A stretch of 64,000 bases of DNA. Origin: Taibaiella sp. KBW10 (lineage in GTDB: Bacteria > Bacteroidota > Bacteroidia > Chitinophagales > Chitinophagaceae). Within the stretch, counting starts at the first letter, position 1. Each line of letters starts with the position of its first letter. The notes under the pieces are model-generated. The model was not told where the DNA came from. It made no database searches and saw only the letters and a list, made by a program, of their open reading frames with translations. A program made the translations under genes and the position numbers. The DNA lies in contig NZ_QAJI01000004.1 in assembly GCF_003852495.1 (NCBI RefSeq), positions 463,111 to 527,110 of the forward strand, given 5' to 3'. Shown piece by piece: positions 4,756 through 6,047 of the stretch.

Positions 4756-4785
4756 ACAAAGCCATTGAAAAATCAATGGCTTTGT
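4756..4785 (-). terminator. Terminator after the DUF4465 gene
   Basis: A 13-bp perfect stem (arms 4756-4768 and 4773-4785) with a 4-base loop. It starts 25 bases past the stop at 4811. The T content after it is moderate on the minus strand and short (TTTT) on the plus strand. Confidence 0.65.
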
Positions 4786-4810: not shown

Positions 4811-5785
4811 TTATTGTTTAACAAACTGGGTAACAGCTGTTTTATCTCCTTTAAGGGTAGCAATCTTTATAAAGTAATTACCTTGTGCTAATGAGCTGAT
4901 ATCAGCATTATTGGTGTTTTGTGCGGCCAGTATCAATTTACCGTTCACATCAAAAATCTGATAATTAACCGGCTCCTTATATGCTATAGTCAGGTTATTC
5001 ACAGCAGGGTTAGGATATACTTTTGTCGCTAAAGGCGTTACATCATTAAGACTTACCGGAGTAACAAATGTAAGGTTGTCCATACAAAAATAAACCGGTG
5101 TATTAACTCCAAACGATCCTACATCAGAAGAAGCATATTTGAAAGACAGGCTGTCCACCGAACCTAAAGTTGTCAGGTTCACCGTACGCCACGCTTTTAC
5201 AATATAATCATTGGCATTATTTGCATCTCTGAAATCAGCAAGATAAAAAGTAACGCTATCCGGCTTTACCGTACCATTCAAGTATCCAAAAACAGTTACA
5301 GAAAAGAAATCCGGATCATTACCGGTAACCCCTCCAAATTTTTTGGAATAGGAGTCTCCGTTTTTCATGCTTAAACCGGCATAGGTAGCATTTGTATAGT
5401 CAAATGCTTTCAACTTCACACTGTGGTTAAAGCTGATACCATAACCCTCTCCATAAGAAATTACATATTTAGCAGAACTCCCTGCTCCGGATGGAGCATA
5501 AGCCGCACTCGCATTCGTATAACCGGCAGTTGTATCATTTACAACATTAGAATAGTTAAATCCTGAATAACCACCCCAGGAAGGCTTTGTGCCGTAAAAA
5601 GTAGCAATATGACCTCCGGTATTGGAAGTACCGGTGAAGGTATAATCAAATGTATCCTTCGTTGAGGCATAATCTGTATTCGTACCGGTCAGCGTTAATG
5701 CTTCAAAATCGATATTAATTGTTTGTGCTTGTACAAACATAGAAAGACATACAGCCGATGCTGTTAAAAGTAAATTTTTTACCAT
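4811..5785 (-). CDS. DUF4465 protein secreted by T9SS, under cobalamin riboswitch control
   Basis: A 324-residue exported protein. Residues 1-20 are a Sec signal peptide ending VQA-Q. Residues about 25-245 match the DUF4465 pattern: an opening F-E-x-L-T-L segment, a G-x-SGFNYSNVVNDTT core, and a VTFYLADFRDAN block followed by an aromatic-rich beta segment ending MDNLTFV. Residues about 255-324 are a T9SS type A sorting domain (YPNPAVNNLTI, then VNGKLI and GNYFIKI). It is therefore probably released or anchored at the cell surface. The upstream cobalamin riboswitch links its expression to vitamin B12. I infer a role in capturing corrinoids; some surface B12-binding proteins of gut Bacteroides come from similar loci. 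No TonB receptor is adjacent. Confidence 0.88.
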   Translation of the reverse strand: MVKNLLLTASAVCLSMFVQAQTINIDFEALTLTGTNTDYASTKDTFDYTFTGTSNTGGHIATFYGTKPSWGGYSGFNYSNVVNDTTAGYTNASAAYAPSGAGSSAKYVISYGEGYGISFNHSVKLKAFDYTNATYAGLSMKNGDSYSKKFGGVTGNDPDFFSVTVFGYLNGTVKPDSVTFYLADFRDANNANDYIVKAWRTVNLTTLGSVDSLSFKYASSDVGSFGVNTPVYFCMDNLTFVTPVSLNDVTPLATKVYPNPAVNNLTIAYKEPVNYQIFDVNGKLILAAQNTNNADISSLAQGNYFIKIATLKGDKTAVTQFVKQ

Positions 5786-5859
5786 TTTTAGTATATATGT
5801 AATTTAAATAAATAAAATACGTCCTTTTCCTTTTTCCCGAGAAAAAACAGGTTTAATAG

Positions 5860-6035
5860 CATAGGGCAGGTCTTCTGACTCGTTCTTTTTGTTAGGCACC
5901 TTCCCGCGATCATGCAGTGGTTATGAAGAAAATATAACAAAATACAATAGAACTTACAGCAACGGGTATTGTTTTGGATTTACACCAAATTCCCTTTTAA
6001 TTCTGTCAAACTGAGGTTTGATCGAAACCAAATGC
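5860..6035 (-). promoter_or_regulatory. Cobalamin (adenosylcobalamin-type) riboswitch
   Basis: Read on the minus strand the region contains, in order, the conserved blocks of the cobalamin aptamer: AAAAGGGAA and GGTGTAAATCC (near 5995-5976), CCCGTTGCTGTAA (near 5965), CCACTG (near 5918), GCGGGAAGGTGCC, and the B12 box AGTCAGAAGACCTGCC at 5880-5865. It begins just after a promoter box (6040-6047) and ends about 75 bases before the ATG of the DUF4465 gene. A short hairpin with arms TTTTTC and GAAAAA (about 5833-5848) follows and may be part of the expression platform. It lacks a clear T-run, so control may be translational. This is the only riboswitch I recognise in the window. Confidence 0.93.
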
Positions 6036-6039
6036 GCTG

Positions 6040-6047
6040 CAAATATA
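6040..6047 (-). promoter_or_regulatory. Promoter -7 box (TATATTTG) for the riboswitch transcript
   Basis: TAnnTTTG match positioned so that transcription starts near 6035, exactly at the 5' edge of the aptamer. Confidence 0.6.

Follow-up and report, generated by a model that had tools for sequence, protein, structure and literature searches.

A single gene under a cobalamin riboswitch, located on the minus strand of a 64-kb stretch of the Taibaiella sp. KBW10 genome (contig NZ_QAJI01000004.1, positions 463,111 to 527,110; hereafter the window), very probably encodes a BtuJ-type protein of the DUF4465 family that is predicted to bind B12 outside the cell, probably leaves it through the type IX secretion system (T9SS), and is likely switched off by B12 through the riboswitch. 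Because a B12 sensor, a B12-binding family and a T9SS tail come together here, the protein is predicted to be made under B12 shortage and would likely be sent outside to catch the vitamin. The span of the unit, 4811-6047, was correct as first noted. The original prediction, that the protein captures corrinoids on or beyond the cell surface and uses T9SS instead of a lipid anchor, remains the most convincing interpretation and is consistent with the tests described below. Two points are amended: the nearest relative is BtuJ rather than BtuG or BtuH, and a stand-alone role is improbable.

Table 1. Features of the riboswitch-DUF4465 unit (window coordinates)
Feature	Position	Strand	Basis
Bacteroidota -7 promoter box TATATTTG, consensus TAnnTTTG	6040..6047	-	sequence
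Cobalamin riboswitch aptamer (RF00174)	5848..6047	-	cmscan, full length
Presumed expression platform, 62 nt between aptamer and start codon	5786..5847	-	sequence
Gene for 324-aa BtuJ-like DUF4465 protein with T9SS tail	4811..5785	-	ORF and domain matches
Signal peptide, ~residues 1-20, no lipobox	5726..5785	-	by eye; helix 2-15 in model
DUF4465 domain, residues 69-238 (Pfam)	5072..5581	-	PF14717
Codon of Tyr135 = BtuJ1 Tyr146 (B12 contact)	5381..5383	-	alignment to BtuJ1
Codon of Tyr232 in NTPVYF = BtuJ1 Tyr245 (B12 contact)	5090..5092	-	alignment to BtuJ1
T9SS type A C-terminal sorting domain, residues 256-324	4814..5020	-	TIGR04183
Terminator-like hairpin, 13-bp stem, loop 4	4756..4785	-	hairpin scan

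Riboswitch, promoter box and transcription unit

The RF00174 match covers model positions 1-189 of 189 at 94.2 bits (cut-off 31.5; E 3.7e-22) and is the sole Rfam match at the gathering threshold in the whole window; the whole-genome search returned 94.2 bits again. The minus-strand aptamer first proposed from the letters was thus confirmed by Infernal and is predicted to bind cobalamin and change expression.

The box TATATTTG overlaps aptamer-model positions 1-8. In Flavobacterium psychrophilum this consensus was placed at -12 to -5 (PMC9723704), so transcription probably starts near 6035, about at the start of P1. In a set of 100 related, hence not independent, aptamers with at least 60 nt of upstream sequence, 68 have a TAnnTTTG box whose start lies between -6 and +8 relative to the aptamer edge, compared with an expectation of 0.0055 per locus calculated from the density 60-500 nt upstream. 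The position of the box at the 5' edge, as originally reported, is therefore more than chance, and a promoter box abutting the aptamer is a convenient marker by which units of this kind can be located in Bacteroidota. A scan for sigma-70 promoters, the wrong promoter type, gave 6 sites versus 6.0 in shuffles and was discarded.

Two terminator-like sites were found in the region, versus 1.0 (sd 1.1) in shuffles, and the second of them has 5 pairs. The hairpin after the gene makes a monocistronic unit probable. The gene that follows is cinA, and on the divergent side lies anmK, next to which are two adjoining genes for small outer-membrane beta-barrels (PF13568; 7374-8837, plus strand).

The DUF4465 protein and its T9SS tail

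The N-terminus MVKNLLLTASAVCLSMFVQAQ is a signal peptide by eye, and it lacks a lipobox because its sole Cys stands after Val. PF14717 (DUF4465) matches at 145.6 bits (cut-off 25), and the sequence match to BtuJ1 covers residues 18-243. At the C-terminus, the T9SS tail is recognized by both PF18962 (47.6 bits, cut-off 27, residues 256-315) and TIGR04183 (45.9 bits, cut-off 23), in agreement with the domain composition initially described.

Tyr146 and Tyr245 of BtuJ1 are named as B12 contacts (PMC13398666), and both tyrosines, in loops DE and HI, are present in the window protein. Among 100 aligned proteins, the column of Tyr135 contains Y in 82, F in 11 and W in 4, and the column of Tyr232 contains Y in 74 and F in 26. 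The modelled protein has the augmented jellyroll of BtuJ1, with a structural fit of 27.7 that is far higher than that of the modules (9.5). Corrinoid binding by DUF4465 has already been published (PMC13398666; PMC12751083), and eight members, down to 16% identity, bind B12 (PMC13398666). From sequence and model, cobalamin binding by the window protein is predicted. That the domain binds another ligand here, such as a glycan or another tetrapyrrole, with the riboswitch merely reporting B12 status, is quite improbable in view of these eight binders, the difference between the two fits, the retention of both tyrosines, and the B12-uptake types that adjoin DUF4465 in many relatives.

A comparison with BtuG- and BtuH-type proteins had been suggested at the outset, but the closest relative is BtuJ. 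BtuG was rejected for lack of PF16819, since only PF14717 and PF18962 match at E up to 1, and BtuH was rejected since 7biz and 8blw chain B are absent from the 12 PDB hits obtained at E up to 1.

According to PMC13398666, lipoproteins make up over 70% of DUF4465 members, and the others carry periplasmic targeting signals; the terms T9SS, type IX and sorting domain are absent from its main text. To describe the distribution of anchors we used a set of 21 members, comprising the window protein and 20 loci found by DUF4465 alone (A5), although this set comes mostly from the window's own family (15 of 21). The T9SS tail is recognized by both Pfam and NCBIfam in 14 of the 21. TIGR04183 matches none of the remaining seven, which are of lipoprotein type, with the lipobox assigned by motif in six of them and by eye in L116. 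A larger set was formed by the 80 top-ranking of 564 relatives; because the query used for ranking carried a T9SS tail, the share of tails in this set is biased. The homologues listed were the best 120 of 910 and the best 120 of 3064. Among the loci, L121 was dropped as a duplicate of L043. A motif call assigned the tail to 85 of 99 loci. Seven of the 14 loci missed by the motif are lipoprotein-type without a TIGR04183 match; the other seven (L037, L049, L085, L096, L099, L119 and L126) match TIGR04183 at E up to 0.001, with L099 below its cut-off. In a tree of 99 DUF4465 domains, from which L101 was left out, one change separates the two anchor types, compared with at least 4 in 200 shuffles.

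The window genome encodes the T9SS translocon gene sprA (SprA_N, 510 bits, contig C6), which is present in 17 of 20 genomes searched, this one included, and the modelled tail resembles translocon-bound tails in fold. On this basis, T9SS-dependent export is likely. A highly improbable alternative is that the tail is unused and the protein is periplasmic, as PMC13398666, which reports periplasmic targeting signals in non-lipoprotein members, assumed for them. The main text of that study mentions no secretion tail, and the alternative is opposed by a tail above cut-off in both libraries, its translocon-tail-like modelled fold, its occurrence in two thirds of the 21 members (14), and SprA in the genome.

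Whether the exported protein would stay on the cell is a separate matter. A type A tail in studied T9SS organisms often leads to attachment to surface lipopolysaccharide (LPS). We consider it unlikely, though the strongest of the alternatives, that the window protein is a freely released carrier (a 'cobalophore'), diffusible, open to sharing or theft, and acting far from the cell rather than held at its surface. A T9SS tail without a lipid anchor would suit such a carrier, as would the tandem DUF4465 domains in four homologues, and BtuJ of Bacteroides thetaiotaomicron is placed on vesicles whose B12 is usable by wild-type cells (PMC12751083). Opposed to release are the TIGR04183 type of the tail and the partner genes of relatives, which include BtuG-like lipoproteins and BtuB-type receptors. 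The four homologues (P0003, P0012, P0020 and P0046; 545-565 aa) have two tandem DUF4465 domains, by eye, ahead of the T9SS tail, which would make them two-site B12 binders.

No B12 binder was found as T9SS cargo in searches of an open-access library, mostly judged by title and the opening of the abstract. The tail is already visible in databases, since NCBI titles some such proteins 'T9SS type A sorting domain-containing protein'; as far as our searches show, it has not been discussed in print.

Riboswitch association and neighbouring genes in relatives

A check of co-occurrence between DUF4465 and cobalamin riboswitches had been proposed together with the original prediction. A same-strand upstream aptamer was found by RF00174 search in 76 of the 80 loci, within 520 nt of the DUF4465 gene in 41 and further up in 35. 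Contig identity of these aptamers was established from mapped coordinates and a B12 box at the mapped place, which differs from the expected sequence at no more than 3 positions in 70 of the 76 and at 4-6 in the other six; random segments have 6-8 mismatches in 2711 of 3000. The four loci without an aptamer lie near contig starts: 249 nt ahead of the gene in L046, inside the preceding receptor gene in L050 (whose genome has zero RF00174 matches), and ~100-250 nt ahead of the preceding receptor gene in L080 and L089. Among over-cut-off DUF4465 genes of the phylum and family genomes, the window's aside, an aptamer lies within 5.3 kb upstream in 20 of 22 tested, the other two being extra copies in G297 that entered the analysis without wide flanks. 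This count leaves out G012, which is below cut-off, and G077, whose 26-bit match lies in a frame of 1866 aa. By chance, a given gene in these genomes has a same-strand aptamer within 520 nt upstream at a rate of ~1.6e-4, and the rate corresponding to the 20 of 22 is ~0.17% per gene.

The operons of relatives include further B12-uptake types. A BtuB-type receptor stands between aptamer and DUF4465 in 33 of 80 loci. An alignment of 33 such receptors (A2; 31 from the 80-locus set and two from the other genome set) contains PF00593 in 30, PF07715 in 30 and TIGR01779 in all 33, the last below its cut-off. Where the aptamer directly precedes DUF4465 (52 loci in both sets), a same-strand BtuB-type receptor follows downstream in 33, in 32 of them within 2.2 kb; the other 19 have no visible receptor in the available flanks, some of which reach contig ends. 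Of 99 loci, 51 encode at or near DUF4465 a T9SS-tailed protein of ~330 aa, termed Q3. Its gene usually comes directly after that of DUF4465, and in L083 and L104 the two are fused. The predicted fold of Q3 resembles the BtuH domain, it has a weak likeness to Leptospira LIC_13355 lipoproteins (43.9 bits, cut-off 120), and it is probably BtuH-like. In L109, a protein that is clearly homologous to BtuH (E 2.7e-33 to 7biz) and has a T9SS tail takes the place of Q3. Several loci examined closely continue with a BtuG-type (DUF5074) lipoprotein and a receptor, the lipoprotein of L131 falling short of DUF5074. Examples of Q3 are L161:8738-9727(-) and L131:5416-6414(-), and the proteins scanned have no Pfam domain of their own.

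Twenty further aptamers from seven family genomes and G245 were assigned to targets, a count that leaves out ten of G230 and G238. They precede five metE, four nrdB (by eye), three TonB receptor, three DUF5074 lipoprotein-type (one 1.9 kb off) and three T9SS propeller genes, as well as genes without assignment in L147 and L149, the latter with a T9SS tail. Altogether, 18 of the 20 targets concern B12 supply or B12 economy. A T9SS-tailed DUF4465 protein behind a cobalamin riboswitch was also observed in L058 (CP034120.1), a record with four riboswitches in total that is titled Glaciecola amylolytica, Gammaproteobacteria by taxonomy, and is perhaps mislabelled.

Partners in the genome and comparison with known systems

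As originally stated, the locus contains no receptor: the genome has 10 BtuB-profile matches, none of them inside the window. The conclusion drawn from this, a stand-alone scavenger, probably does not hold, since the window protein has likely partners elsewhere in the genome. Three cobalamin riboswitches were found there, located before the window gene, a T9SS-tailed propeller and, in a weak instance, nrdB and nrdA. The propeller gene forms a second solo B12-riboswitch unit (L005:11287-13080(-); G000 C7, ~187.3-189.1 kb) and encodes a BtuG-like protein of 587 or 597 aa, depending on the start codon, with sub-threshold DUF5074 (22.8 versus 27.2 bits) and HYR domains. DUF5074 passes in its orthologue from the congener (33.2 bits), and proteins 51-69% identical to it lie behind riboswitches in G017, G296 and G317 (L144, L137 and L138). 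A Q3 homologue is encoded on C1, with no riboswitch at E up to 1, and a BtuB-type receptor is found at C7:571769, 103 kb from the window gene. Four proteins with B12-binding domains are above cut-off, and CbiC was not found in this genome (99.84% complete).

A lone scavenger without dedicated partners accordingly has a very small probability. It would explain the receptor-free window, the terminator-like hairpin right behind the gene, the equally solo locus of the congener and the 19 aptamer-direct loci without a receptor in view, but likely partners exist elsewhere in the genome and a receptor follows in most such loci of relatives. In the congener (G017), the solo DUF4465 gene is likewise located between anmK and cinA and encodes a protein 34% identical; the simplest reading would be dispersal of the genes of an ancestral operon, with two T9SS binders retaining B12 control.

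Three side observations concern these loci. The weak riboswitch (32.1 bits in the whole-genome search, not listed in the gathering-threshold scan of L006) is followed at L006:6042-9123(+) by nrdB, a small thioesterase-like gene (by eye) and nrdA, and its position suggests that class I ribonucleotide reductase may be B12-controlled. The receptor frame (L136:7770-9710(+)) has a TTG start and lies right after a DedA-like and before an mnmE-like gene (by eye), an odd setting for a regulated receptor. At the congener locus L112, a beta-barrel gene similar to those beside anmK occupies the same place (by eye).

In the proposed mechanism, scarce corrinoid would leave the aptamer empty and the mRNA expressed. 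The signal peptide would carry the protein over the inner membrane and T9SS would carry it over the outer membrane; with the tail cut off, it would be placed on surface LPS or released. The loop pocket would then take up cobalamin and pass it to the BtuB-type receptor of the genome, the T9SS-tailed BtuG-like propeller with its own B12 riboswitch and probably the BtuH-like T9SS protein acting as partners. For gut lipoproteins, loosely associated binders were proposed to load the BtuB-BtuG complex (PMC10404256), an idea that would fit the present case if the tether is changed.

Several observations weigh against this interpretation. Binding, secretion and expression of the window protein are all predictions. 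The HI-loop tyrosine, kept in the window protein, is Phe in 26 of 100 aligned proteins, versus Tyr in 97% of homologues according to PMC13398666. The leader folds no better than shuffles (z 0.43) and no clear switching hairpin was found in it, so we infer the direction of control. DUF4465 is uncommon: in the phylum sample it occurs in 9 of 296 genomes, with 8 over cut-off, and in the window's family in 15 of 60. Of the 21 members in the anchor count, the 15 from that family comprise 12 with the T9SS tail and three of lipoprotein type, whereas just 2 of the 6 from elsewhere are tailed. Two extra DUF4465 copies in G297 (C12 and C39) have no aptamer nearby. Finally, the BtuB-type gene of the genome has no riboswitch at E up to 1, and its product scores 42 versus the TIGR01779 cut-off of 600, so that its substrate, too, we infer.

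The nearest known relatives are BtuJ1 (BT_1491) and BtuJ2 (BT_1957) of B. thetaiotaomicron (PF14717/IPR027828), which share with the window protein the jellyroll, both B12 tyrosines, a cobalamin-riboswitch locus and a signal peptide, and which are predicted lipoproteins within B12-uptake operons (PMC13398666; PMC12751083). Unlike them, the window protein lacks a lipobox and ends in a T9SS tail, and its gene has a promoter box, a riboswitch and a terminator-like hairpin to itself, with no receptor gene close by; lipoprotein nature, found in BtuJ1/2 and most members, is not a requirement of the family. BtuG and BtuH surface lipoproteins have in common with it the role of extracellular B12 capture for BtuB, predicted in the present case, but differ in their folds (propeller and BtuH domain), neither of which it matches. 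With T9SS type A cargo (TIGR04183; NucA and Mirolase tails) it shares the sorting-domain sequence and modelled fold, along with SprA in the genome. Studied T9SS cargo consists mostly of enzymes, adhesins and haem binders, whereas this protein is a predicted B12 binder. The aptamer is full-length, like RF00174 riboswitches upstream of btuB, btuG, metE and nrdAB, and other copies in this genome and family precede nrdB, metE, receptors and BtuG-like genes; unlike those, it precedes a single binder, predicted to be secreted, rather than a transporter or enzyme.

Many bacteria have to capture B12, a scarce vitamin, and the surface binders studied so far are outer-membrane lipoproteins of gut Bacteroides. 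A wider proposal, which we hold tentatively and judge slightly less probable than its opposite, is that many Bacteroidota export a whole extracellular B12-capture kit via T9SS, consisting of tailed BtuJ-, BtuG- and BtuH-type proteins, several with their own riboswitch; in the genus of the window it would be split into single-gene units, with surface or released 'cobalophores' dialled by B12 and the receptor not. The T9SS route, if true, corrects the view of non-lipoprotein DUF4465 proteins as periplasmic and means that other Bacteroidota carry B12 binders on their surface LPS or release them into the medium, raising questions on sharing, theft and handover to BtuB.
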